49,733 nucleotides of DNA from IMG/VR virus record IMGVR_UViG_3300046529_000469, positions 1-49,733 of that record, one strand, 5' to 3'. The notes under the pieces are model-generated. The model had not been told where the DNA came from. It was given only the letters and a program-made list of their open reading frames with translations, and searched no databases. The position numbers and the translations under genes are program-made. Positions 10,387 to 34,659 of the stretch are shown in pieces (positions within the stretch are counted from its first letter, which is position 1; every line of letters begins with the position of its first letter). The stretch comes from a virus.

Positions 10387-11592
10387 ATGGCCGACGACGC
10401 CGCGTCCGCGCCGGCGGCACCGGCGCCCGACCAGCTTCCGGGGCCGGTCTTCAACCCGGACGAGATCGCGACCGTCGTCGTCGATGGTCGCAGGTTTCAA
10501 AGCTGGAAATCCGTTTGGGTGCAGCATCGATGGGCCGAGGCTTATCCGCTGTTCCGCTTTACGTCCGCGGACATCGAGCAAGTGCCGGCCGATTGGCAAA
10601 AGCTGCAATTCAAGCCGGGCGACGAGTGCGCGATCTATCTCGGCAATGAGCTCGCGATCACCGGCGTCATCGTCACGCGCCAGACCGCCTATTCCAAGGA
10701 AAGCAAGGGCATTCAGTTCCAGGGCATCGGCGTCACGTGGTATGCGGCGCGCGCGAGCGTCATCCACAAGACCGGCAATTTCGACAACAAATCATTCATG
10801 CAAATCGCCGAGGAAGTGCTGGCGCCGACCGGGATCAAGATCATACCGATCGGCAACGTCAACGCAGAGCCGTTCGTCAAATGCCAGGTCGAGCCGGGCG
10901 AGACGATCTGGAATTTCCTCGAACGCCTGGCGCGCCCGCGCGGCATCGTGATGGGGAGCGACAAAGACGGCAACTTCTTGGCGATCGACGACCATACGAT
11001 GCCGATCAGCGCGAGCTTGGTCGAAGGCGTCAACATCATAAGTTGCCAGGCGGTCATCTCGATCGAGAACATCTTTACCGACTACATTATCCGCGGCCAG
11101 ACCGCGGCCAGCGACACGCAGAACATGGCGGCGGCTTCCGAGCAGGAGGCGCACTATCCCGGCACCGCGAAACGCTACTCGCCGGTGCTGACGCCGGCCG
11201 AGCAACCCGTGTGGAGCATCGGCGAGCTGCAAGAGCGCGCCAAGAACGAGTCGATATGGCACGAGGGCACCATCATCGAGGCGACCATCGTCGTGCAAGG
11301 CTGGATGCGGCCAGGCACGCATCAGCTATGGCGCGCCGGCGATGACGTGAGCGTCAAATCACCGATGGCGATGCTCGACATGGTCCTCAAGATCAGGACC
11401 ATCACGTTTACGCAAGACCGCAATCAAGGAACGCTAACGGCGCTCGAGCTGGTCGCACCGTGGTTGCTCAAGGATGCCGGCGACTTTGACGTCAGCAATC
11501 CAACCGCGCCGCAGGCGCCCGATGCAAACGCCACGCCGGCGGCGCCGGTAACATCGCCGAGCGAGCCGCCGCCGCCAAACTTGGAGGAATAA
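10387..11592 (+). CDS. Baseplate hub protein (Mu gp44 / gpP-like)
   Basis: This 401-aa protein resembles the late-control/gp44 family that forms the trimeric hub between tail tube and spike. Diagnostic segments are 'FRFTSADIEQVPADWQKLQF' near the N-terminus, 'QIAEEVLAPTGIKIIPIGN' in the middle, and a C-terminal OB-like stretch 'WRAGDDVSVKSPMAMLDM'. The last 30 residues are Pro/Ala-rich. The ATG abuts the previous stop and a spike gene follows after two bases. Confidence 0.87.
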   Translation: MADDAASAPAAPAPDQLPGPVFNPDEIATVVVDGRRFQSWKSVWVQHRWAEAYPLFRFTSADIEQVPADWQKLQFKPGDECAIYLGNELAITGVIVTRQTAYSKESKGIQFQGIGVTWYAARASVIHKTGNFDNKSFMQIAEEVLAPTGIKIIPIGNVNAEPFVKCQVEPGETIWNFLERLARPRGIVMGSDKDGNFLAIDDHTMPISASLVEGVNIISCQAVISIENIFTDYIIRGQTAASDTQNMAAASEQEAHYPGTAKRYSPVLTPAEQPVWSIGELQERAKNESIWHEGTIIEATIVVQGWMRPGTHQLWRAGDDVSVKSPMAMLDMVLKIRTITFTQDRNQGTLTALELVAPWLLKDAGDFDVSNPTAPQAPDANATPAAPVTSPSEPPPPNLEE

Positions 11593-11594
11593 GG

Positions 11595-12518
11595 ATGCAT
11601 CGCGCTACGCCGCTCAATACCAGCTTCCGCGCCTACTCGTCGGGCGGCGCCCGCACCATGATCAGCGGGGCCGACGACGGCAAAATGATGCAGGAGATGG
11701 CCGGCAACTTTATGAAGGGCGAGACCCGCGACAAGGTCGAGTCGCCGCAGAACTACGGGTTCTCGTCGGTGGTGCGCGCCGCCACCAAAGACGCGCAGGG
11801 AATGATCAAGGAAGCCGCCGAGGGGTTTATCAGCTTCATCGGCGGCAACCGATCGTTTCCGGTCTGCGCCATCATGGACGACCGGCGCCATCGCCCGATG
11901 GGTTTGAAGGAAGGCGAGAACGCGCAATATGACGACCTTGGGCAGATGACGTTGTTGCGCCGCGCCGGCTTGTTCCTGTTGTCGCTCGACGGGCCGGACG
12001 ATAGCCAGAAGCAAAGCGGCGGCGGCCAGGGCGGCAGCGGCGGGTCGAGCGGGCAGCAACAAACCGTCAAACGCTTTGTTTCGATCCGGCACGTCGAAAA
12101 GAAAAAGCAGCAACGTAAAGGCGGCAGCGTTTCCAGCGCCGACGGCTCGAGCTCGAGCAGCGGAAGCGGCGGCATCGGTAGCGCGCGCGATACGAGCGGA
12201 GGAAGCGGTAGCGGCCAGAGCGGCGGACAGAGCCAACAAGATTTCAAGCACGAAGGCGAGAGCGTCAATCACGAAATCCGCGTCAGCAAGGGCCGCATCG
12301 AGTTCCGCTCGGGCGACAGCGTGGTCGGTTACTACGACGGCCAAAACAAGACCTGGGTCTTCATCGGCAAGATCAAGCTCGGCACCGAGAGCGCCTCGCA
12401 TCCCGTCTACGGCGTCAATCAAGGGCTCGGCCACACGACCGATCCCAACGGCAACGATGCGGTGCTGGTCAACGCGCCGAAGCCGGGGCCGCCGACCTCG
12501 CTGGACACGAAGCCTTAA
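11595..12518 (+). CDS. Baseplate spike protein (Mu gp45 / gpV-like)
   Basis: This 307-aa protein fits the membrane-piercing spike of Mu-like baseplates. The core has the gp45 landmarks 'DDRRHRPMGLKEGENAQYDD' and a C-terminal beta-prism region from 'NHEIRVSKGRIEFRSGD' to 'KIKLGTESASHPV'. It carries an N-terminal extension and a Ser/Gly-rich low-complexity insert (about residues 140-215) absent from Mu gp45. GGAGG precedes ATG 11595. Confidence 0.85.
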   Translation: MHRATPLNTSFRAYSSGGARTMISGADDGKMMQEMAGNFMKGETRDKVESPQNYGFSSVVRAATKDAQGMIKEAAEGFISFIGGNRSFPVCAIMDDRRHRPMGLKEGENAQYDDLGQMTLLRRAGLFLLSLDGPDDSQKQSGGGQGGSGGSSGQQQTVKRFVSIRHVEKKKQQRKGGSVSSADGSSSSSGSGGIGSARDTSGGSGSGQSGGQSQQDFKHEGESVNHEIRVSKGRIEFRSGDSVVGYYDGQNKTWVFIGKIKLGTESASHPVYGVNQGLGHTTDPNGNDAVLVNAPKPGPPTSLDTKP

Positions 12519-12522
12519 AGCG

Positions 12523-13026
12523 ATGCCCGACATCCGGCTTGTCCAGCGCACCGATTTTCCGGGCCGCACATCGGTTTCGGTCGATTGGCTGTTGCTGGGC
12601 GACGGCACGCTCGACGATACCGAGGCGCTCGCGACCGCGGTCATCGTCGCGCTCGGCACCGATCGCCTGGCGTCGATCGACGACGAGCTGCCCGACCCGG
12701 ACTCGACCGATCGGCGCGGCTGGTGGGGCGACCTCGACGCGCAGGAGATATGGGGCGGCTGGGAAATAGGCTCGCGCCTTTGGCTGATGCAGCGCGCGAA
12801 AATCACTGGTTCGAATGCCGCGGTCGGCTCAACGCTCGTTCGCGTCAAGCATTATATCCAAGAGGCAATCCAGCCGTTTCTCTCGCTGCGCATTGGCACG
12901 TCGATGGACGTGCAAGTCGAGCGGTTCGATACCCAGCGCATCGACGCCTTGGTGCGCCTCTATCGCGGGCCGCTCACCGCGGTCGAGCTCCGCTATCAAA
13001 TCCTCTGGCAAGACATCATCGAGTGA
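12523..13026 (+). CDS. Baseplate wedge protein (Mu gp46 / gp25-like)
   Basis: This 167-aa protein fits the GP46 family (PF07409). It contains 'RRGWWGDLDAQEIWGGWEIG', the hallmark WWGD motif, followed by 'SRLWLMQRAKIT' and an ending with 'VELRYQILWQDII'. ATG 12523 lies four bases after the spike stop. The longer reading frame upstream overlaps the spike gene and is rejected. It precedes the gp47/baseplate J gene as in Mu. Confidence 0.88.
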   Translation: MPDIRLVQRTDFPGRTSVSVDWLLLGDGTLDDTEALATAVIVALGTDRLASIDDELPDPDSTDRRGWWGDLDAQEIWGGWEIGSRLWLMQRAKITGSNAAVGSTLVRVKHYIQEAIQPFLSLRIGTSMDVQVERFDTQRIDALVRLYRGPLTAVELRYQILWQDIIE

Positions 13027-13032
13027 CGCCGC

Positions 13033-14121
13033 ATGCCGTGGTCAACGCCGACGCTCAAATCCGTTCGTAGCCAAGTCCGCGATTTCATCCGCGGCTCGCT
13101 GCCGGGCGCCGACGCGAGCGTGCCGAATTCGGTCTTGCGCGTCATGTCCGATACGCAGGGCGCGCTCTGCCATCTCAATCTGCAATATCTCGACTGGCTG
13201 GCGCTGCAATTGATGCCGGACACGGCCGAGACGGAATGGCTCGACCGGCACGGCGACATCTGGCTCACCAATTCGGACGGCTCGACCGGCCGCAAGTCGG
13301 CGACGCTGGCCAGCGGGACCGCGAGCTTCCAAGGCCTCGTCGATGGCGCGCTCCTCCCGATGGGGACGCAGCTCTCGGCGGGCGGCACGCCGGCGGTCGG
13401 CTACGAGACGACGCAGGACATCACGACCTCGAGCTCGGCCCTGGTCGTCGGGCCGATCCGCGCGCTCGATCCCGGCTCGGCCGGCAATCAAGTGGACGGC
13501 GCCGTGCTGACGATCGCGCCCGGCGTCGCCAACATCGATAACTCGGCGACGGTCGTTCATCTCACCGGCGGCGTCGATACCGAGACCGACGACCAGCTTC
13601 GCGCCCGGATATTGCTGCGCATTCGCCAGCCGCCGATGGGCGGCGCGCAGGCCGATTACGTCAATTGGGCGCTCGCGGTGCCTGGCGTGACGCGCGCCTG
13701 GGCCGCGCCCGAGCAAGGACCGGGCACGATGACTGTTCGCTTCCTGATGGACGATCTGCGCGCCGACGATGACGGCTGGCCGACGCCGGACGACGTGCAA
13801 GCGGTCGCGGACTACATCGACGTGATGCGGCCGGTCACGGTGAAGGACTGCTACGTGGTGGCGCCGATTAAGGAGTTCATCGACATCACGATCGCAAACC
13901 TCGAGCCGGACACGTCGGAGGCGCAGGCCGAAATAGAGCAGAGCGTCCGCGATATGCTGTTCGCCAAGGCCGCGCCTGGTCAGACCATCTATGCGTCCTG
14001 GGTGAGCTACGCGATCATGAGCGCGCCGAGCGTTCAATCGTTCCAGCTCGTCACGACCGCCGATTACGTGATGCCATCGCTCGGTCATATGGCGGTGCTC
14101 GAAACGATCCTCTACCAATGA
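13033..14121 (+). CDS. Baseplate J-like protein (Mu gp47)
   Basis: This 362-aa wedge protein of the contractile baseplate has the usual length. Visible family features are 'QYLDWLALQLMPDTAETEWL' near residue 50, 'TGRKSATLASGTASFQG', 'GGVDTETDDQLRARILLRIR' and 'PMGGAQADYVNWALAVPGVT'. These match baseplate J (PF04865). It overlaps the next gene by four bases (ATGA). Confidence 0.92.
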   Translation: MPWSTPTLKSVRSQVRDFIRGSLPGADASVPNSVLRVMSDTQGALCHLNLQYLDWLALQLMPDTAETEWLDRHGDIWLTNSDGSTGRKSATLASGTASFQGLVDGALLPMGTQLSAGGTPAVGYETTQDITTSSSALVVGPIRALDPGSAGNQVDGAVLTIAPGVANIDNSATVVHLTGGVDTETDDQLRARILLRIRQPPMGGAQADYVNWALAVPGVTRAWAAPEQGPGTMTVRFLMDDLRADDDGWPTPDDVQAVADYIDVMRPVTVKDCYVVAPIKEFIDITIANLEPDTSEAQAEIEQSVRDMLFAKAAPGQTIYASWVSYAIMSAPSVQSFQLVTTADYVMPSLGHMAVLETILYQ

Positions 14122-14921
14122 CGCAGGCGTTAGGCTTCTGGGCAGAGCCGCTGCCGACCGACCGGCATATCCGGCGCAGCGGCGACGACTACACGCAGGC
14201 GTTTCTATCGCTCCTTCCGCAAGGCCAGGCGTGGCCGAAGCACGATGTCGGCGGCGTGCTGTTCGGCGTCTGCGACGGGCTCTCGCAGTATTGGGGTTTC
14301 GTGGACGGGCGCGCCGGCGATCTGCTCGAGCGCGAGAGCGACCCGCGGCAGACGGTCGAGCTCCTGCCCGATTGGGAACGCAACTTCGGCCTGCCCGATC
14401 CTTGCTACGCCGAGCCGCAGACCATAGGGCAGCGCCAGCTCGCGCTCGTCATGCGGATGACGATGCAAGGCGGGCAATCGCGCCAGTTTTTCATCAATGT
14501 CGCGGCGATGCTCGGCTACGACATAACGATTACTGAATATCGCACGTTCGTTTGTGGCATCGATCGTTGCGGAGATAATCGCGTCTACGGCGACGGCTCC
14601 GATCCGATGTACAACGAATGGGGCATCCCGATCAAAAATCCGAATGGGCAGAACGTCGCCGGCGGCGAGCTGTCGGAATATCCGTATTACGGGCTCGGGC
14701 CTGAAACCAACCGTTTCTATTGGACGGTGCATGTCCATCAAGCCGCGCTGACGTGGTTCCGCGTTACCAAGGGCCAGACTGGCGTCGATCCGCATTTGCG
14801 CATTGGGCTCGCGACCGATCTTGAATGTTTGTTAAATCGCTGGAAGCCGGCGCACACCGAAATCATCTTCGACTATTCCGGTATTGGAAAGCCGGGCGAT
14901 CCAATGGCAGGGACACCATGA
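14118..14921 (+). CDS. Baseplate-fibre connector (Mu gp48 / DUF2313-like)
   Basis: This 267-aa protein resembles YmfQ/DUF2313 (PF10076), which links baseplate wedge to tail fibre. Key segments are 'DDYTQAFLSLLPQGQAWP', 'LLPDWERNFGLPDPCYAE' and a C-terminal 'LECLLNRWKPAHTEIIFDYS'. The start overlaps the stop of the gp47-like gene. It is the last conserved baseplate gene before the fibre module. Confidence 0.88.
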   Translation: MTQALGFWAEPLPTDRHIRRSGDDYTQAFLSLLPQGQAWPKHDVGGVLFGVCDGLSQYWGFVDGRAGDLLERESDPRQTVELLPDWERNFGLPDPCYAEPQTIGQRQLALVMRMTMQGGQSRQFFINVAAMLGYDITITEYRTFVCGIDRCGDNRVYGDGSDPMYNEWGIPIKNPNGQNVAGGELSEYPYYGLGPETNRFYWTVHVHQAALTWFRVTKGQTGVDPHLRIGLATDLECLLNRWKPAHTEIIFDYSGIGKPGDPMAGTP

Positions 14922-17156: not shown

Positions 17157-19444
17157 ACTCCGTCGAGGTCATCACCGATCCTCCCATCACCGTCGCGGCC
17201 GATGTCGCCGATGCGCTCGTGCTGCTCGGCCCCGGCGATGTGGAGACGATCATAACGGGCGTGCAGGGACCGCCCGGCCCTCCCGGCCCGGCCGGCGGCC
17301 CGCCTGGACCGTCTGGCCCGCCCGGCCCGCAGGGACCATCCGGTGGGCCGCCCGGCCCAGCGGGGCCGCAGGGCATTCAAGGGCCGCAGGGTCCGGCGGG
17401 GCCGCAGGGAGCGGCCTCGACCGCACCGGGGCCGCAGGGACCGCCAGGGCCGCAAGGGCAACAGGGACCGGCCTCGACCGTGCCGGGACCGCAGGGACCG
17501 CAAGGCGCGCAGGGCGCGCAGGGATCGCCGGGCGCGCAGGGGCCGACCGGAGTGACGGGCGGGCAAGGCCCGGCCGGGCCGCCTGGACAGACAGGTCCGC
17601 AGGGGGCCACGGGTGCGGCATCCACGGTGCCGGGGCCGCCGGGCGTGGACGGCAATACCGTGCTCTATGGCGCGGCCGATCCGGTCGCTGCGACCGGCGC
17701 CAACGGCAATTTCTTCATCAACACGACTTCGCATTTTATGTTTGGTCCGAAGTCTGCCGGCGCTTGGCCGGCCGGCGCTTCGATGATTGGGCCGGAAGGC
17801 CCGACAGGGCAAACCGGAGCGCAAGGATCGGCGGGCGCAACGGGAACCCGAGGTAGTCTCTGGTATGAAGGCATTGGTCCGCCTCCAACGGGAAGTGCGA
17901 CAGAAACATGGAATGCGGCCGACCTTTCCGCAGTCACGCTGACCAACAACAATCTAACCGCTACGGGGACGGCGGCAGGAGGCGTGCGCAGCACTGCCGG
18001 GCTGAGTTCCGGCAAACTTTATTACGAAGGCAAGATAACCGCCATTCAAACTAACAGTTTGGGGATTGGCATCTGCACGGCAGGTGCGAATTTGGCAACA
18101 ATCAATACAGCGTATGCCAATGCCGCTGCAGTAAATAGATTGGGGATCATATTTCTCAACGGTAGCAACTCTGGCGTTTCGCTGGGCATGCGAGCGGTCA
18201 ACGATATTATCGGACTTGCTGTTGATTTAACCGCGCGCCTGATCTGGTTTCGGGTCGCGCCGGCCGGAAACTGGAACGCCAGCGGGACTGCAAACCCGGC
18301 GACCGGCGCAGGCGGCATCAGCATCAGTGTTTTAACCGGAGCAGTATTTTGCCTTTTTTCATCTGGCGCTAACGGCGACGCAGTCACCGCGAATTTGGGC
18401 GCCAGTGCATTCAGCGGGGCTGTGCCATCGGGCTTTTCCGCAGGCTGGTTCGCGCCTGCGATCAGTGGGCTGCTCGTCGGCGACAACTATCTCAACGGCA
18501 GCAACGGCGATGTCTACACGCTGACCGCAACGGGCTGGGGTTCGCCGGTCGGCAATATCCGCGGACCGCAAGGGCCAGCGGGAGCAGGTTCGCCTTCAAC
18601 TGTCCCGCCGATCATGGACGGCGTTGCGACGGTCGGCATTTCAACCAACTTCTCCCGCGAAGATCACGTTCATCCAAGCGATACATCTCGCGCGCCCCTC
18701 GCATCGCCGGCCTTGACCGGAACCCCAACCGTACCGACCGCAGCGCCCGCAACCAACACAACACAGGCCGCGAGCACCGCGTTCGTCACGGCCGCAGTCG
18801 CAAGCCACCCCTCGGTGCGGGCGATCAGAATGTTCAACGCCAGCGGCACTTACACCCCTACCGTTGGCATGACCACTTGCATCATCGAAATGGTTGGTGC
18901 CGGCGCCGGCGGCAACGGTTACGCAGCCCAAAGCAGCTTTTACGATATCGGCGGCGGCGGCGGATCAGGAGCATATGCGCGCAAATTCGCAACCGCCGCC
19001 CAGATCGGCGCCTCACAAGCCGTGACCGTGGGCGGCGGCGGCCCCGGCGGCCCCGGCACTACGAACAGCGCCGGCTATGCCGGCGGCGATAGCAGCGTCG
19101 GCGTGCTCTGCGTCGCCAAGGGCGCCCCATCGAACGGCAGCGGCTTGGCTCCCGGTGGTGGCGCCGTCCTGGCCGGCTGCGTCGGGGACTTCACCGCCCC
19201 CGGCAGTCCAGGGCAATTCGGCGTTCAAGCAGCCCAGGGCGCCACCGTCTTCACCGGCGGCGCCGGCGGCAGCAGTATGTTGGGACCGGGCGGAATGCAA
19301 ACACAATGGACCGCGACAGTCCTCACCGGCAACAACGCCCTCGGATACGGCGGCGGCGGCTCGGGCGGCTCGATCGGACAAGCCACCGGTGGCGTGGGCG
19401 GCGGCAATGGCGGCAACGGCGTCGTCATGATTACGGAATTTTAG
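17153..19444 (+). CDS. Large collagen-like tail fibre with SPRY-like and Gly-rich tip domains
   Basis: This is a 763-aa modular fibre. A short N-terminal domain (1-35) is followed by collagen G-X-Y repeats (about 36-166), a beta linker, a second short G-X-Y stretch, a SPRY/concanavalin-like domain (about 240-430: '[20 protein letters not shown]', '[13 protein letters not shown]'), another G-X-Y stub near 471, and the common phage motif '[20 protein letters not shown]'. The C-terminal 200 residues are glycine-rich with GGGG and GGGGPGGPG runs, recalling polyglycine-type receptor-binding tips. ATG 17153 overlaps the previous stop. It is the likely receptor-binding protein. Confidence 0.85.
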
Positions 19445-26091: not shown

Positions 26092-26262
26092 TCATCCCAT
26101 CTGGTGCGCAGAACTCTCGTCTGCGGACCGGAATGGCACGAGCGGGAATGTTGGTTCGCAGTCAGGGCAGCCGCAACCGTAATCCACGACCCATCCGCAT
26201 TTGGGGCATGCGATGTCGTCCCATGATGGCCTCGGAGTCTCGGCTTGTTTTATGATTGACAT
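26092..26262 (-). CDS. Small zinc-ribbon-like protein
   Basis: This 56-aa protein has CPKCG and CGCPDC pairs about ten residues apart, a rubredoxin- or zinc-ribbon-like knuckle pair. ATG 26262 overlaps the stop region of the PP-loop gene by 13 bases. It is the last gene of the leftward operon. Confidence 0.5.
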   Translation of the reverse strand: MSIIKQAETPRPSWDDIACPKCGWVVDYGCGCPDCEPTFPLVPFRSADESSAHQMG

Positions 26263-27074
26263 AGCAATCCACACTCCACGTCATGCTCCTCGGCGACTTC
26301 CTCGAATAGCTCTGGCGACCGGGCTATCTCTTGCAGGAGTCCCGCGTAGCTATCGCGGCGGTCAAACCAGCCCTTCACGCTCTCCTCCTGATCGATCCAC
26401 CACCTTGCTGACGCCGGGCTTTGCCGGATCAGGCGCTTACGCAGACCGCGACCCTTGAGGAAGCACAAGTCACAGTTTCCGCCACTCGGCTCTAAATCAA
26501 GGTCGAACGGTTGTTCTCGCCAGAACTCGGTTACATCCCGAAGATGTCTGTGAGCCTTGGCGAGGGGTGCAACACATCGGCGGCCGTCCCGCTCGTTGCG
26601 CTCCAGCATCTTAAAGACGCGCATGCCCTCATCATCCCGCAGGCCGATGATTTCGGCATATCCGGCCTCAAACCCTTTTGATTTGAGGAAGGAAGCCATC
26701 GCCTTAACCTTGAGGACTTGCGTGCAAAATCTTGCCTGCCAATTGGGCGGCATCCCCTTTTTGGCGATGAGCGCCGCAAACGGCTCCCCAAGTCGGCTGG
26801 CTGAATTGTATCCGACCTCCTCAAAGCCCTCCGGGGTGTCCCGCCACTCGATCCAATGCACCTTGACTGCCCAGCGCGTCCCGCATTCGTGAACGAACCG
26901 CAGGGTTTCCTCGCGCTCCTTGCCTGTGTTGGCGAACACGACCAGCACCCCGGATGGCAACGAGCCGCCATGAGCCGCAAGTATCTCATGCAACATATAG
27001 CCCGAGGTACGGCCACCACTGAACGAGATGGTGGCGGGGGCTTGGATCAGGAACGGGTTAGGTTTCGCTAACAT
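26250..27074 (-). CDS. PP-loop enzyme, phosphoadenosine phosphosulfate reductase-like
   Basis: This 274-aa protein carries the PP-loop 'SFSGGRTSGYMLHE' (residues 17-30; SGGRTS binds ATP or PAPS phosphates) and later 'VVFANTGKEREETLRFVHEC' and 'GLRDDEGMRVFKML'. A C-terminal NCDLCFLKG motif could bind metal or be redox-active. The family (adenine nucleotide alpha hydrolase-like) is frequent in phages and related to PAPS reductase, DndC and other thiolation enzymes. The substrate is not evident. A VUT-like remnant lies just upstream, so a link to nucleobase modification is conceivable. Confidence 0.82.
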   Translation of the reverse strand: MLAKPNPFLIQAPATISFSGGRTSGYMLHEILAAHGGSLPSGVLVVFANTGKEREETLRFVHECGTRWAVKVHWIEWRDTPEGFEEVGYNSASRLGEPFAALIAKKGMPPNWQARFCTQVLKVKAMASFLKSKGFEAGYAEIIGLRDDEGMRVFKMLERNERDGRRCVAPLAKAHRHLRDVTEFWREQPFDLDLEPSGGNCDLCFLKGRGLRKRLIRQSPASARWWIDQEESVKGWFDRRDSYAGLLQEIARSPELFEEVAEEHDVECGLLCQS

Positions 27075-28804: not shown

Positions 28805-29664
28805 TATCTCGGCATGTCCTCTGCCGCCCCGGTCGGGGAGCTCTCGGCGGTCGCCGGCTGCGGCGCTATCGGCTCGAGCGGCGGGAATGTTTCATCGGCC
28901 GACGCCATTCCGTCACTGACTGCCTTCGCCATCGCGATCACCCTAGCAATATCGGGCGCCAACCATGATTGGTTCGGGCGGCCGATGACGCGCTCGACCC
29001 GGTTGAGCGCAATCGGAATGCGGGCGAGGCCCTCAAGTGTGCGCTGGCGATAGTTTGCCAAGTCCTTGCCGATCTTATCGACCAAGGAGTTGCGCGCATG
29101 CTCGAAAGCATAATCCGCATAAATTTGCAGGCTGTTGATGATGCAGTTGCGGATCGCCTTGCTCTGGCCGATCTGATAGGCGATGTCGAGCTGGCGGTCG
29201 GCGTCTTTGGTCTTCATCGAGGTTTGGGATTTGCGTTGACGGTACGCGCGCTCCATGCTGAAGCCGGTTTCGATGTCGGAAAACCGCGCATAGAAAACCC
29301 AGGCATCGCCGACGTCGATTTCGCGGACCTCGTTTATGTTGTTGCCGAAGATGCGCGCCACGTCATTGGCGAGTTTGATGCTCGGCCCTTCGATCCAATC
29401 CTGGCCGCCGTCCTTCTTTTTGACCGGAAAGCGATAAAACCAATCGGGTCCGGCGGCGGCGGCGAGTTGTTCGAGCTTCTGCAAAATCCTAGCCTCGTCG
29501 CGATGCACAGCAACAAGTTGCGCGCCGATGACGCGATCGGCGAGCCCGGCGGTCGGTCGCACGAGGCTATGACCGGACGGGACTGGTTGCTGCAATTGGC
29601 CGGCGGCGTTGGCAAATTGCGCCAGAGCGCCGCGGCGGTCTTCAATATCCTGATGATCAGTCAT
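28804..29664 (-). CDS. Putative single-strand annealing/recombination protein
   Basis: This 286-aa protein contains 'GPSIKLANDVARIFGNNINE' and 'AYQIGQSKAIRNCIINSLQI', a layout shared with a phage family (motif GPS[IV].LA) found in recombination modules and thought to be strand-annealing proteins. A central basic segment 'RAYRQRKSQTSMKTKDADRQ' may contact DNA. The C-terminus is Pro/Ser/Ala-rich and disordered. It is encoded in the same operon as a YqaJ exonuclease, and such exonucleases normally have an annealing partner. Assignment is by motif and context, not by a firm family match. Confidence 0.6.
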   Translation of the reverse strand: MTDHQDIEDRRGALAQFANAAGQLQQPVPSGHSLVRPTAGLADRVIGAQLVAVHRDEARILQKLEQLAAAAGPDWFYRFPVKKKDGGQDWIEGPSIKLANDVARIFGNNINEVREIDVGDAWVFYARFSDIETGFSMERAYRQRKSQTSMKTKDADRQLDIAYQIGQSKAIRNCIINSLQIYADYAFEHARNSLVDKIGKDLANYRQRTLEGLARIPIALNRVERVIGRPNQSWLAPDIARVIAMAKAVSDGMASADETFPPLEPIAPQPATAESSPTGAAEDMPR

Positions 29665-29680
29665 CTATCAAACTCCTGTT

Positions 29681-29951
29681 GGAGGCGGGCCGCCATGACC
29701 CGCCTCGCCGCTCCATCACGAGCCTTGCCATGCCATGCCGCGGCATTCCTGCCTCACCGGGCCGGTACCATGTCCCGCCATGACGCCCTGAACCTCATCC
29801 AGCCTCGCCTGCCGTGTCTCGCCTGTCCGCACCGTGCCCGAGCTAATAGGGCAGAGCCCAACCGGGCCTGCCATGCTTTGCCGAGTCTCGCCCAACGCGG
29901 GAGTGGCAAACCTCAGCGCTCCAGCCCACGCCACGCCTGCCTCGCCTGTAT
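29681..29951 (-). repeat. Degenerate pentamer tract A (GGCNN on transcribed strand)
   Basis: This noncoding stretch between the annealing-protein gene and the 185-aa gene is made of NNGCC units (+ strand), with ten units in one phase at 29701-29750 and phase shifts afterwards. It includes a perfect 12-base palindrome ATGCCGCGGCAT (29735-29746). Two similar tracts separate the upstream genes of the same operon. No good coding frame is present. Confidence 0.8.
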
Positions 29952-30509
29952 TCACGCCACTGCCCTTTCGACCGTTGTGCGGAGCTCGACGACCTTGGCC
30001 AGAAGAGCCTCGAGTTGATTGCTTAGACCCGGAAATCGCGAGTCTAAAATTCCCGTGATCCGTCTTGCGCGACTGATCGAGCTTTCGCACCGAGCTAACT
30101 CAGCAATCATAACGGCCGTTGCATTCTCGCGGTTCATCTCATCGCCAACCAAAGCGATGTAGCCTTGCGTCAAAGGTGCTGCGGTCGGATCGCGAACAAA
30201 ATACGGCGCCGACAAGCGTTCGTTTTTGTAGATCACTGTTACGGTGACATATTGGACGATAAGATCGCGAGCACGATCGAGCCGCCGCAAGTTGGCTTCC
30301 TTGCGATCATCCCAACCAAATTCGCGATGCAGAACGTGCTTTGGATTTTTGGCGGCTTGCACGACCCTATCGGGCGTGATGCGGCCTTGCCGATCGCGCA
30401 ACTCTTCGAGTGCTGCCTTGATGGCCGCGGCTCGAGCTGACGGTGCCCGCGTCGCACCAGCCGTTGCCGTTGCCGTTGTCTTGCTTCGCGCTACTGCTCG
30501 CTTCGCCAT
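29952..30509 (-). CDS. Conserved-looking recombination-operon protein of unknown function
   Basis: This 185-aa protein starts at ATG 30509, behind AGAGGA. An N-terminal basic Ala/Thr-rich tail (1-35) is followed by 'ELRDRQGRITPDRVVQAAKN' and 'HREFGWDDRKEANLRRLDRA', a segment seen in phage proteins next to RecT/Erf-type genes, and a C-terminal helical part. Upstream in-frame codons would translate pentamer tract B and are rejected. Function unknown; DNA-binding is plausible from the basic N-terminus. Confidence 0.7.
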   Translation of the reverse strand: MAKRAVARSKTTATATAGATRAPSARAAAIKAALEELRDRQGRITPDRVVQAAKNPKHVLHREFGWDDRKEANLRRLDRARDLIVQYVTVTVIYKNERLSAPYFVRDPTAAPLTQGYIALVGDEMNRENATAVMIAELARCESSISRARRITGILDSRFPGLSNQLEALLAKVVELRTTVERAVA

Positions 30510-30521
30510 TTGTTTGTTTCC

Positions 30522-30960
30522 TCTGCCTGCGTTGCCTTGACCCGCATCACCACGCCGTCCGTGCCGGGCCTTTCCTAGACACAACGCGCCTCGTCGTGCC
30601 TGCCATGCCTCATCGGACCTCGCCAAAACGGCCCTCAGCGGATCAAGCGTCGCTTCGCCTGCGTTGCCCGACCTCACCAGAACATCCCACGCGCGCCGCG
30701 CCTCACATCACCTCGCCTGCCGTGCCGGGCCTGACGCTTCTCGTCTCGCCCAGCCATTCTGAGGGCGCCCAGCCCCGCCTCGCCTGCCAGGTCGTCCTCG
30801 TCTCGCCCGGCCGTGCTCCGCCGAGCCATGACCTGCCCCGCCGACGCCTTGCCATGCCGCGCCCGTCAGCCCACGCCGTGCCTGCCGAGCCCAACCGCAC
30901 CTATCCGCATTCGTGCCGCGCCTCTCCCTATCCCAGCTCTCCTAGCCCTGCCGTGCCAAA
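30522..30960 (-). repeat. Degenerate pentamer tract B (GGCNN on transcribed strand)
   Basis: About 440 bases without a plausible gene lie between the 284-aa and 185-aa genes. NNGCC pentamers run in phase over nine units at 30556-30600, and many more occur with shifted phase ('CCTTGCCATGCCGCGCCC' near 30847). It has the same composition and strand bias as tracts A and C. Confidence 0.8.
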
Positions 30961-30972
30961 AGCCCGCTTTCC

Positions 30973-31827
30973 TCAAATCGGTGCCTCGCTTCCCTCATAT
31001 CGTTCGCCGCCATTGGCTTCGATATGCACGCGCCTGCCGCGCGGCCTCGTCGGCGAGGACGGCACGTCTTGCTCGCGGCGCGTAACTTCTTGATTGAACC
31101 AGAGCAGCAATTCTTCGGTGTCGGTGTCGAAACAAACGGGCCGCTCCATTGCCCGCTCCTGCGCCGCCCTGCCCATCGTCTTCACGATGCGCTTGAAGTC
31201 GGCGTCGGTTGAGTCAACCAATTTGAATGCGCCGTAGGGACCGCCCTTTTGGCCGCGCCAATCGCCGATGCCGACGATCATGCCGGCGGCGCTGAACAGA
31301 TTGGTAATCGTCCGCTCGCTTAGAATTTTGCGGACATAGCGCACGGTCACCTTGCAGGCCCAATCCGGGAATAGCGGGCGCGTGCGAACGTCCGGTGTGT
31401 GGTTCATGTCCGAGTTGCGCACCATCGCCATGAACAGTTGCGGCAGGCCGAATAGATCGATGTTCACGTCGGCAATGCGCGTGAGCCGCTCGATCTTGGC
31501 TTTGGTCGCTCCCGGCATGTCGAGCGCCGCCGAGGCGATGCAGCCGTGAAATGCGCCGTTCGGAATATGGATCAAAGCCGGCGCCTTGGGGTCGCGGTTG
31601 CGATATACGGCGCCGCGGAATTCGGCGACCGGGTCGTGCTTGAGTGTCTGCTCCATGTCGGCGCGATTGCGCGTCTGCGAAGGAAGCAACAACTCGTGCC
31701 AAGCCTTTTGGTTAAAGCGGTTCATGATCAATGGCGATGTGCCAAGGACGTGAAAATAGATTTCCGCCATCTCGATCTCTTGAACCTCGATCATCTGGTC
31801 GTTCTTTTTCGTCGCTTGCTTTGCCAT
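30973..31827 (-). CDS. Unknown 284-aa protein of the recombination operon
   Basis: Its N-terminal strand-loop 'IYFHVLGTSPLIMNRFNQKA' and a Gly-rich loop 'GMIVGIGDWRGQKGGPYGAF' give a pattern (G-T-S-P-L-I...K-A then G.G..R...GG.YG.F) that recalls RAMP/Cas7-like folds. That is a speculative comparison. The middle contains 'FHGCIASAALDMPGATKAKI'. It lies between the exonuclease and annealing-protein genes and is flanked on both sides by pentamer tracts. The start ATG 31827 has GGGAG eight bases upstream. No catalytic residues identified. Confidence 0.65.
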   Translation of the reverse strand: MAKQATKKNDQMIEVQEIEMAEIYFHVLGTSPLIMNRFNQKAWHELLLPSQTRNRADMEQTLKHDPVAEFRGAVYRNRDPKAPALIHIPNGAFHGCIASAALDMPGATKAKIERLTRIADVNIDLFGLPQLFMAMVRNSDMNHTPDVRTRPLFPDWACKVTVRYVRKILSERTITNLFSAAGMIVGIGDWRGQKGGPYGAFKLVDSTDADFKRIVKTMGRAAQERAMERPVCFDTDTEELLLWFNQEVTRREQDVPSSPTRPRGRRVHIEANGGERYEGSEAPI

Positions 31828-31869
31828 GTTGAAGCTCCCACGCTTGTTTGGTTGATGGATTATTATAAG

Positions 31870-32325
31870 ACTTCGCCTGCCTCGCCTTACCGCAGCATTC
31901 AGCGTCAGGCCTTACCAGGCCTCTCGGCACCAATCCGCGCCTGCCTTGCCTCGCCCCGTCTCGTTGGGCCAAAGTCATCCAAGACATCCGGGCCGGGCCT
32001 GCCTCGCCCGTCCGCGCCTGTCCAGAACCCGTCTAGCCACGACCTGCCTTTCCTGCCTCGCCCGGCCATGCCGTGCCCGGCTCTGCCCTTGTGTGCGTTG
32101 CTACGTCGGGTCTGGCTCGGCCGCGCCTGCCTTGCCTGTTTGTTAGTGCGCGCCCGGCTTTCTGGGGCCAACCGGATTGCCGGGCGCGCGGCGGTCGCAT
32201 AGCGGCGGAACCGAGTTGTTCATCGGTAGCGATGCGACCGCTTTCGTTTTGCCTGCCTCGCCACGGCGTGCCTATCCGCGGCTTGTCCGGCGCTGCCTGT
32301 TCTGGCCTTGTCCAGCCTGCCATGC
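31870..32325 (-). repeat. Degenerate pentamer tract C (GGCNN on transcribed strand)
   Basis: About 450 noncoding bases lie between the exonuclease and the 284-aa gene. From 32051 to 32125 fifteen consecutive pentamers stay in one phase with a nearly invariant G every fifth base (CCNNG on +). The tract is interrupted at 32148-32241 by two perfect hairpins and then resumes. Confidence 0.85.
32148..32241. other. Double hairpin element inside tract C
   Basis: Hairpin 1 has perfect 11-bp arms GCGCGCCCGGC (32148-32158) and GCCGGGCGCGC (32179-32189) with a 20-base loop. Hairpin 2 has perfect 10-bp arms GCGGTCGCAT (32191-32200) and ATGCGACCGC (32232-32241) with a nested 5-bp stem (ACCGA 32210, TCGGT 32223). 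The two lie one base apart. It could be a structured RNA element, a processing signal or a protein-binding site. Confidence 0.75.
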
Positions 32326-33267
32326 CTAAGTTTCCGCCGATTGCTTGAGAATTTTAAACATGCGATAGCTTGAGGCCGCAACGCTGTAAGCCTTTTTGTT
32401 GATCGTCTTCCAACTTAGCCGGCGCCCATCAAGCAAACGTCCGTATGTGTGATCGCCCAGCTTGGCGCACAGCTCGGTCTTTAGCTCGGTTTCGCTATCT
32501 CGCAGGCGCTTCAATGCGCTTTGTACCTCGATCAGTTCCTCAGTTGCCGCCGCGGCTCTATTGTCGCCGGATAAATCAATTTCGCTCCCGTCATCATGCG
32601 GGAATAGCTGCTTGACCAGCCGCTCGTCGCGCTGCGGTTCGAAGGGCGGCATAATGTTGGCGTCGAGGTGATTGCGCCAGAAGTTGGCGACATCATCGAG
32701 GATAGCCTCCTCGACCACCGGATCGCGCTCGACATCGATCAAATTGAAATCCCATCCGTATTCGCCGACGCTCAAGACCACGACCGACGCCCATTGGCAT
32801 TCTGCCAGCATCATGGTTGTCAGCACTTGCAAAAGGTAATGCGCAGGGACGCGCGGCTCGCCGTCTTCGTCGTCGCCGAACCATTTTTCTTTGAAGACGC
32901 TCCGCGCAACCGTCTTCGCCTCGACCAGGCCGATGCCCTCGCGATCGGGCCGGAAGGCGAAGCCGTCCGGCGTGGCCGCGATCCGGTGCTCGCGATCGAT
33001 CAGGTGGAGTGCAGCGCGTTGCACTTGCCATTCCGGCCGCATGTCGGCGAGGGCCTGGAATACGGCGGACTCGCCCCAACGTCCGCGTCGCATGACGGCA
33101 TTGTCAACGCGCGGCGGCCGCAAGCCTTTCTTTTCGGCATACAGCTCGGCGAGCGAACCATAGGGCGCGACGCCACAAACGGTTCCGACCTCGCTTCCGT
33201 TGACGAATTGCAGGCGGGCGCCGAGCCAGTCATATTCGGGCACAATGGAAATCCGGTCGACAGCCAT
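32326..33267 (-). CDS. YqaJ-type viral recombinase/exonuclease
   Basis: This 313-aa PD-(D/E)XK nuclease is expected to resect double-strand ends for phage recombination. Motifs: 'MRRGRWGESAVFQALADM' (Glu66), TPDGFAF (Asp101), 'GIGLVEAKTVARS' (Glu116, Lys118) and 'HYLLQVLTTMMLAECQWASV' (Gln in helix). These are the YqaJ (PF09588) signature residues in order. The C-terminal 90 residues are a helical extension. It is the first gene of the leftward operon and is separated from the next by tract C. Confidence 0.9.
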   Translation of the reverse strand: MAVDRISIVPEYDWLGARLQFVNGSEVGTVCGVAPYGSLAELYAEKKGLRPPRVDNAVMRRGRWGESAVFQALADMRPEWQVQRAALHLIDREHRIAATPDGFAFRPDREGIGLVEAKTVARSVFKEKWFGDDEDGEPRVPAHYLLQVLTTMMLAECQWASVVVLSVGEYGWDFNLIDVERDPVVEEAILDDVANFWRNHLDANIMPPFEPQRDERLVKQLFPHDDGSEIDLSGDNRAAAATEELIEVQSALKRLRDSETELKTELCAKLGDHTYGRLLDGRRLSWKTINKKAYSVAASSYRMFKILKQSAET

Positions 33268-33630
33268 TACGGGTTTCCCCTGAGTGTCGGTTGATAGTTG
33301 CGGTTAGTGTCGTTTGGTGGCGTTTAGTATCGTTTGGTGGCGTTTAGTTGCTCGTGGTATCGCAACGTCGTTGATTGATCCGTTTGGTGATCTTGCCGCC
33401 GCGAAAATAAAGGTCAAGGCGTTGCGGCGCGACGGTATAGGGCATGTGTACTGCCCTTGTTTTGAAAACTGTTGCGCGTGCCGAGGTATAGCTGCTTCGG
33501 AGTTGCAATTTCCGCCACCAACTTTTTTTTCGGCGCCGATTTTACCAGTGAGCCTACGTATTGACGCACGCAAGCGAGCGGGACCAAGGTGGGCGCTCGC
33601 GAATAATCTCAATCAAACGAAGTGGCCGGC
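33268..33630. other. Divergent control region of the two early operons
   Basis: No plausible gene lies in these 363 bases. The region separates the leftward recombination operon from the rightward methylase/replication operon, so both promoters should lie here. It contains the 20-bp tandem repeat at 33311-33350 and an AT-richer stretch (33400-33540) with a T8 run. No confident -35/-10 pair was assigned. Confidence 0.7.
33311..33350. repeat. Tandem 20-bp repeat, operator/iteron candidate
   Basis: Two head-to-tail units begin CGTTTGGTGGCGTTTAGT and differ only in their last two or three bases. The 20-base period equals about two helical turns, so bound proteins would stack on one face. The core GTTTGGTGGCG recurs inverted at 40661-40671. 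Confidence 0.8.
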
Positions 33631-34659
33631 ATGACAGCGCGCACGCGCCAGCTTACTTTGCACGACGTGGGTGTCGCCGCGAGCAACTTCGGACTCAGCG
33701 TGCCGGGCAAACTCACGACGACAAGCTGGCAGTTGCCGGCCGATATGCTCGAGGATCAATGGGTAGCCGCCGGTTTATGCCTTCAGCGGATCGAGGGCGC
33801 GGTGCAATGGTGGCTCGGCGATTGGTGGGCTTACGGCGAGCACGTTTACGGCGAGCGGAAGGCGTTGTTCAAGGAAGGCCAACCGCTCGCGGATATGAAT
33901 TTCCAGACGGTCATGGATTACGGCTGGGTAGCGAAGGCGGTGACAACCTCGTTTCGAAACGAGGTTCTTTCGTTCGCGCATCACCGGCACGTCGCTTCGC
34001 TCGCGCCCGACCTACAGCGCGAATGGCTTGAGCGCGCGATTGAGGGCGAGGACGGCAAGCCGTGGTCGTCCAATCAATTGAAGGCTGGGATTGCGCGGGC
34101 CGCCGCGTTTGCGCGCACCAAGAAAATCGAATTTGACGCAGCCTCGCTCGGTAAGTTCGTCGTGCTCTACGCAGATCCACCGTGGCGTTACGAGAACCCG
34201 CCGATGGGCGGATCGAACCGCTCGATCGAGAACCATTACCCGACGATGGACCTCGATGAGATTTGCGCGCTGCCGGTCGGCGAGATCGCGCACGATAACG
34301 CCGTGCTTTTCATGTGGGCGACCTCGCCCAAGCTCGCCGAGTGCATGCAAGTGCTCGCCGCATGGGGCTTCAATTATCGAACCGATATGGTCTGGGTCAA
34401 AGACAAGATCGGCATGGGCTACCATGTGCGGGAAAAGCATGAGTCATTGCTGATCGCGAAGCGGGGCGAGTTGCCGCCGCCGGCGGTCGAGGCGCGTCCA
34501 GCATCCGTGGTCGAAGCGCCGCGGCTCGAGCACAGCGCAAAGCCGCTGGTTTTCTATGACATTATCGACACGATGTATCCTGGCGTCCGCAAGAAGGAAT
34601 TATTTGGTCGTGCGCCGGATGAACGGCCGCTCTGGTCTACCTGGGGTAACCAGGCATGA
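33631..34659 (+). CDS. MT-A70-type DNA adenine methyltransferase with N-terminal domain
   Basis: This 342-aa protein has the catalytic motif DPPW (residues 182-185 in 'VVLYADPPWRYENPP') and the later 'NAVLFMWATSPKLAECMQVL' and 'GYHVREKHESLLIAKRG' of MT-A70/N6-adenine methylases. The first 170 residues are an extra domain with 'IEGAVQWWLGDWWAYGEHVY' and 'SFAHHRHVASLAPDLQREWL', seen in front of some plasmid or phage DNA-binding proteins. ATG 33631 is preferred over GTG 33622; neither has a strong ribosome-binding site. Likely role: protecting phage DNA from host restriction, or regulation. Confidence 0.88.
   Translation: MTARTRQLTLHDVGVAASNFGLSVPGKLTTTSWQLPADMLEDQWVAAGLCLQRIEGAVQWWLGDWWAYGEHVYGERKALFKEGQPLADMNFQTVMDYGWVAKAVTTSFRNEVLSFAHHRHVASLAPDLQREWLERAIEGEDGKPWSSNQLKAGIARAAAFARTKKIEFDAASLGKFVVLYADPPWRYENPPMGGSNRSIENHYPTMDLDEICALPVGEIAHDNAVLFMWATSPKLAECMQVLAAWGFNYRTDMVWVKDKIGMGYHVREKHESLLIAKRGELPPPAVEARPASVVEAPRLEHSAKPLVFYDIIDTMYPGVRKKELFGRAPDERPLWSTWGNQA

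Follow-up and report, generated by a model that had tools for sequence, protein, structure and literature searches.

What are the long repeat tracts that part the genes of a phage recombination operon, and which of their neighbours do they serve? The window analysed here, scanned over its whole length, is a 49.7-kb IMG/VR virus record whose four leftward genes (YqaJ-type exonuclease, 284-aa protein, 185-aa protein and annealing protein candidate) are separated by minus-strand intergenic gaps of 498 nt (31828-32325), 463 nt (30510-30972) and 287 nt (29665-29951). The original prediction held that tracts of a GGCNN pentamer fill these gaps, with a period of five exceeding that of shuffled sequence, and both claims are confirmed. 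GGC intervals are multiples of 5 in 27 of 38, 28 of 46 and 16 of 26 cases (498-, 463- and 287-nt gaps, respectively), and the counts of GGC pairs in 5k phase are 72, 75 and 54, where dinucleotide shuffles average 15.0, 17.0 and 9.3 (z = 10.7, 10.0 and 11.2). That no comparable tract exists elsewhere in the window is likewise correct: all eight best-ranked windows of a period-5 Fourier scan overlap the three gaps, and long minus-strand GGCNN tracts found by an HMM scan are confined to them, with weaker plus-strand calls (1576-1791, 2112-2218 and 17490-17590) lying inside GC-rich coding sequence and shuffled windows yielding 0.2 tracts each.

The genome is GC-rich and open frames extend into the tracts, so that a low-complexity repeat or an artefact of GC-skewed coding might be suspected; given z values of about 10-11 against dinucleotide shuffles, and unit steps of 4-6 bases that are conserved in relatives and incompatible with any codon frame, we regard this as having a negligible chance of being right, and the guide-target matches presented below exclude it. 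Because unit length shifts by one base at the steps, the tracts are non-coding. The degenerate five-base unit originally described stands, refined to a GGYNN consensus (1.22, 0.79 and 0.68 bits at positions 1-3; 0.10 and 0.03 bits at NN) with a second level of organisation, in which runs of some 10-14 pentamers are closed by a 4-base step, GGCA/GGC. The NN letters are hypervariable whereas GGY is conserved, a perfect GGY core being present in only 54% of units in the window arrays. Arrays lie on both sides of the gene for the 284-aa protein and after that for the 185-aa protein, and the clear guides contain 10-14 units (Table 1).

Table 1. Features of the recombination operon and its tracts as interpreted here (window coordinates).
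Feature	Position	Strand	Basis
YqaJ/RecE-like exonuclease gene	32326..33267	-	Pfam YqaJ 3.9e-14; PHROG 434 RecE-like 4.3e-58
vrRNA array A, one guide	32253..32328	-	HMM and unit parse
Guide 1 of array A, 12 units, target relatives' YqaJ gene	32258..32317	-	23/24 at L004:5162+
Double hairpin, judged ancestral and outside VIPR	about 32140..32245	-	homologous element in VIPR-less L009-L011 and in L004/L005
vrRNA array B, about 4 guides, one with a 1-nt deletion	31877..32136	-	HMM, unit parse
vipr gene, 284 aa, RAMP-fold predicted RNA-binding protein	30973..31827	-	PHROG 4652, hhalign, Foldseek
vrRNA array C, degenerate, several indels	30527..30957	-	HMM, unit parse
Putative vap (accessory) gene, 185 aa	29952..30509	-	PHROG 15946 8.1e-10
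vrRNA array D, 4 guides	29690..29946	-	HMM, unit parse
Guide 4 of array D, 12 units, target relatives' annealing gene	29690..29749	-	23/24 at L006:4253+ and L014:6712+
Single-strand annealing protein candidate, 286 aa	28804..29664	-	PHROG 3657 3e-38

Viral Interference Programmable Repeat (VIPR) systems are known from phage SUSP1 and a P. fulva prophage through a 2026 preprint (PMC13142463). It describes guides of 9-16 repeats each, in which alternating GGY/NN is read with a one-base skip, and a Vipr-guide complex that binds double-stranded DNA and represses transcription; it also mentions staggered or overlapping arrays, vrRNA with an invariant structured 3' tail and accessory genes named vap1-6. 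The 284-aa protein of the window matches PHROG 4652 at 2.8e-16, the family that SUSP1 Vipr matches at 1.4e-96, the SUSP1 gene (KT454805 28474-29061, minus strand, with GGY arrays on its flanks) being taken as Vipr by size, place and flanking arrays as given in the preprint. Alignment of the two proteins by hhalign gives a probability of 97.3 and an E value of 2.7e-11, with RP.F..W and G.GDWR blocks aligned. An AlphaFold model of the 284-aa protein (mean pLDDT 72) has CRISPR RAMPs (Cmr, Csm3, Cas7-11) as all of its best Foldseek matches in the PDB; since the structures resemble each other only modestly (TM about 0.3-0.5), the PHROG and profile evidence outweighs that from the fold. From sequence profiles and this model we identify the protein as Vipr, a predicted compact RAMP homologue. 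Its 185-aa neighbour, for which the model is of low confidence and gave no fold match, is probably vap; a PHROG 15946 homologue is present in 26 of the 82 Vipr-encoding loci among the matches listed in the census below.

With the VIPR systems described, the window shares a PHROG 4652 Vipr, flanking same-strand GGY/NN pentamer arrays, hypervariable NN letters, the one-nucleotide skip with wobble alignment, the targeting of competing phages and one small gene next to vipr. It differs in its accessory gene (PHROG 15946, as against PHROG 5926 in SUSP1), in guides that abut via GGCA/GGC with no SUSP1-like 3' tail visible between them, in cores looser than those reported for SUSP1, and in arrays that lie between recombination-operon genes and target the homologous genes of relatives. 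Our reading, to which we give a probability of roughly 93%, is that a VIPR system has been inserted in the phage recombination operon, with the three tracts as its vrRNA arrays, and that this system likely silences the recombination operon of competitors. Our analysis shows how the repeats are built, which family and fold Vipr has, the target matches with their skip rule, and the self-mismatch; expression, RNA processing, binding and repression at this locus would be expected by analogy with PMC13142463. The kind of system is already known, very recently so; this member has loose GGY cores and a recombination operon split by arrays, and the locus may itself already figure in the preprint's supplementary tables, because the preprint cites IMG/VR.

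Class 1 CRISPR effectors (Csm3, Cmr6 and the Cas7-11 RAMPs) have in common with the window protein the RAMP fold and a glycine-rich loop-like motif, and the family binds RNA periodically; the window differs from Class 1 CRISPR-Cas in its single RAMP gene, the absence of cas genes and palindromic repeats, and its noncontiguous guide. A Class 1 CRISPR-Cas locus was ruled out, as the neighbours are not cas genes and the guides match only with a gap. An Rfam search found no ribozyme, riboswitch or other family.

The guide code was examined by scanning the viral DNA gathered for this analysis, arrays masked, with 10-unit windows scored over 20 letters. At a skip of one base, 14 of 437 distinct windows from the phage family reach 19-20/20, against 1 for shuffled guides, while skips of 0, 2 and 3 bring 0, 1 and 0 of the 437 to that score; the 14 windows correspond to about five guides, because neighbouring windows overlap. 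An enlarged guide set and database gave 19 of 2865 windows at 19-20, versus 3 with shuffled guides. Within the recombination genes of relatives such scores are attained by register-correct windows only, the skipped base is the third (wobble) base of the codon, as is usual under the VIPR target rule, and guide boundaries coincide with GGCA steps. Guide 1 of array A (read 32317-32258; NN = TG AA CA CA AG CG AA GC TA AC GT GA) matches the YqaJ gene of L004 (L numbers denote the records and loci compared) in 23 of 24 letters, and guide 4 of array D (read 29749-29690; NN = AT GC AT AT AA TC AT GC GA GG AT GG) the annealing gene of L006, also in 23 of 24, each match starting exactly after a GGCA step; the L006 codons concerned are ATc GCg ATg ATg AAg TCg ATc GCc GAt GGc ATg GCa. 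Allowing up to three mismatches, the annealing-gene site is present in 14 of 25 related records, and a reversed-pattern control in 0. The targets of these two guides are the relatives' homologues of the two genes that surround the tracts, YqaJ at the border of the insertion site and the annealing protein candidate (which has distant Gordonia homologues, part of them annotated ssDNA binding protein), and it is competing mobile elements that are targeted, as expected of a VIPR.

A convincing target was found for only two of the ~12 window guides: the viral DNA scans returned none for those of array B, and two further guides matched three loci in viral contigs, which we treated as chance since the matches do not extend past the searched core or are out of frame. 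Thin sampling of these phages could account for the guides without a found target. The lack of targets for most guides, the low share of perfect GGY cores and the indels of array C, which may be decaying, would suit a former VIPR whose guides are being lost and are no longer used by the phage. We consider this unlikely: the vipr and vap reading frames are intact, and the two matched guides have 1/24 NN mismatches despite 8 and 6 core deviations, a pattern unlike random decay. Over three matched guides, a comparison biased in that these were chosen for NN matching, deviations affect 20 of 111 core positions versus 2 of 74 NN letters (Fisher P = 0.001). Because neutral decay would strike core and NN equally, the non-GGY units are probably still functional, and guide cores may tolerate them beyond what is reported. 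The most relaxed core position is the second G.

The same numbers bear on the possibility that the tracts are RNA or DNA binding sites of Vipr or the annealing protein through which the operon would be controlled in cis, much as by a TRAP-type leader, with NN irrelevant. In TRAP-type NAGNN leader RNAs a five-base repeat is bound by repeated protein subunits, and here too period 5 would fit a repeating subunit and the arrays directly precede each ribosome-binding site. The five-base repeat is what is shared; the variable letters here encode targets, the protein fold is unrelated and action would be in trans. With NN letters that match relatives' genes at 23/24, at skip 1 and in the correct register only, and matched guides that vary more in the core than in NN, cis control of this kind is very unlikely. 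The structured or protein-bound leader RNA of the original prediction was nevertheless on the right track, the tracts more exactly encoding, as we read them, guide RNAs for the adjoining RAMP-fold protein.

The window's own alleles match its guides less well than those of nearly all relatives, with 15/24 for YqaJ (guide 1) and 17/24 for the annealing gene (guide 4). Divergence of the own alleles from the family around the target sites ranks 10th of 249 and 19th of 235 sliding windows, and the most divergent sliding windows of both genes lie at or near the guide target sites. Conversely, a guide of L002 fits a conserved YqaJ stretch (AELYAEKKGLRPP), scoring 26/26 against several relatives and 25/26 against this window, and reaches at most 18/26 in L002's own genome. 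A guide of L007 in turn matches L002 at 19/20 over 10 units and 21/24 over 12 units, the weakest match of the set, and these sequence matches suggest that the two VIPRs may target each other's phage. The L002 guide also has a 24/26 match at L009:4065 (minus), close to where a small, possibly regulatory gene begins.

In the mechanism we propose, each guide would consist of ~10-14 GGYNN pentamers between GGCA/GGC steps and be coated by Vipr (284 aa, Cas7-like RAMP), with the GGY of each unit held by the protein, NN pairing with DNA, and one target base per unit skipped, landing on codon wobble positions. Two guides would be directed at YqaJ and the annealing gene in close relatives, the phage's own alleles being too diverged for targeting, and the likely outcome would be transcriptional silencing of the recombination operon in a co-infecting competitor or a resident prophage. 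More tentatively, at somewhat less than even odds, VIPR may be an allele-specific weapon in the recombination operon, the phage's own alleles having diverged at guide sites to escape; through such escape VIPR could therefore drive the divergence of recombination modules and could limit gene exchange among closely related phages. The analysis is an independent confirmation, from sequence alone, of the noncontiguous one-nucleotide-skip guide code in uncultivated phages far from SUSP1, suggests that the homologous recombination genes in near relatives can serve as guide targets, and makes available natural guide-target pairs with self-mismatched controls built in. It also raises the questions of how a phage acquires its guides and avoids targeting itself.

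Whether the tracts belong to Vipr or to the recombination genes is decided by comparing who carries them. YqaJ and annealing genes are present without vipr and without tracts in L009-L011 and L015, so the tracts are not tied to these two genes, and more widely (L004-L006, L009-L013 and L015) no tracts lie between the pair, whether adjacent or split by other cargo. L002 and L003 have the 284- and 185-aa genes beside different neighbours and retain the tracts, which are also present in L007, L008 and L018, where a distant 284-aa homologue and a ParB-like gene lie between YqaJ and the annealing gene. A census of viral contigs by pattern alone (seven consecutive GGCNN units, no protein information) found at least 120 loci, and among the matches listed 82 of 120 encode Vipr. 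Arrays of 20 units or more occur at 78 of the listed loci, of which 63 have a Vipr homologue, two the annealing family and none this YqaJ family; in this long-array set the array-vipr gap has a median of 19 bp, and the strand of vipr is shared by 80 of 81 arrays. The arrays therefore follow Vipr, not YqaJ, and do not always flank YqaJ/annealing genes.

These distributions also tell against the tracts being recombination substrates or module-exchange linkers for the adjacent enzymes, as originally suggested. The different cargo found in the YqaJ-annealing interval among relatives might favour such roles; yet the cargo of L004, L006 and L012 carries no tracts, VIPR-less relatives with both genes lack them, and among the census matches listed arrays elsewhere go with Vipr without YqaJ. 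Since the NN dinucleotides carry target information, the tracts are not module linkers, and we hold either role to be highly improbable. The double hairpin between arrays A and B is, in the VIPR-less relatives, all that separates YqaJ from the annealing gene and, judged by this distribution, is older than the arrays and no part of VIPR.

Near the recombination operon the window also has a PAPS-reductase-like gene (26250-27074) and an MT-A70-type DNA methyltransferase gene (33622-34659). A genome-contig scan for a host gave homologues from Ensifer and Bradyrhizobium that are only 50-54% identical, so that the host can be placed no more firmly than as probably Rhizobiales.

The YqaJ-annealing interval (window 29664-32326; L004, L006, L007, L012, L020) is a cargo hot spot, containing two different VIPRs (with a PHROG 15946 vap or a ParB-like gene), an apparently HATPase-like gene pair (L006), a gene similar to HNH-type endonucleases (L004/L005) and further unknowns. 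At L020:4256-5460 a vipr-like gene is flanked by pentamer tracts with a CGCNN core on the gene strand, not GGY; the L020 tract is opposite in strand to its vipr-like gene and does not follow GGY, its skip scan returned low-complexity matches owing to its constant letters, and it may represent the 'related consensus' of a different VIPR type. In SUSP1, a 1.7-kb gap without annotated genes (KT454805 72919-74614; L206:22919-24614) lies separate from the VIPR locus. Very long arrays occur at L092:1956-3546 (325 units) and L058:7605-9177 (315 units), the L092 guides being short, mostly 7-8 units between GGCA steps, below the 9-16 repeats given in PMC13142463. A 1340-nt array at L014:9077-10416 has about 20 guides and uses 4-base steps GGCT or GGCC in place of GGCA, and in L150 and L151 the annealing gene has a VIPR with a ParB-like accessory gene downstream of it (about 11160-14190), outside the YqaJ-annealing interval.
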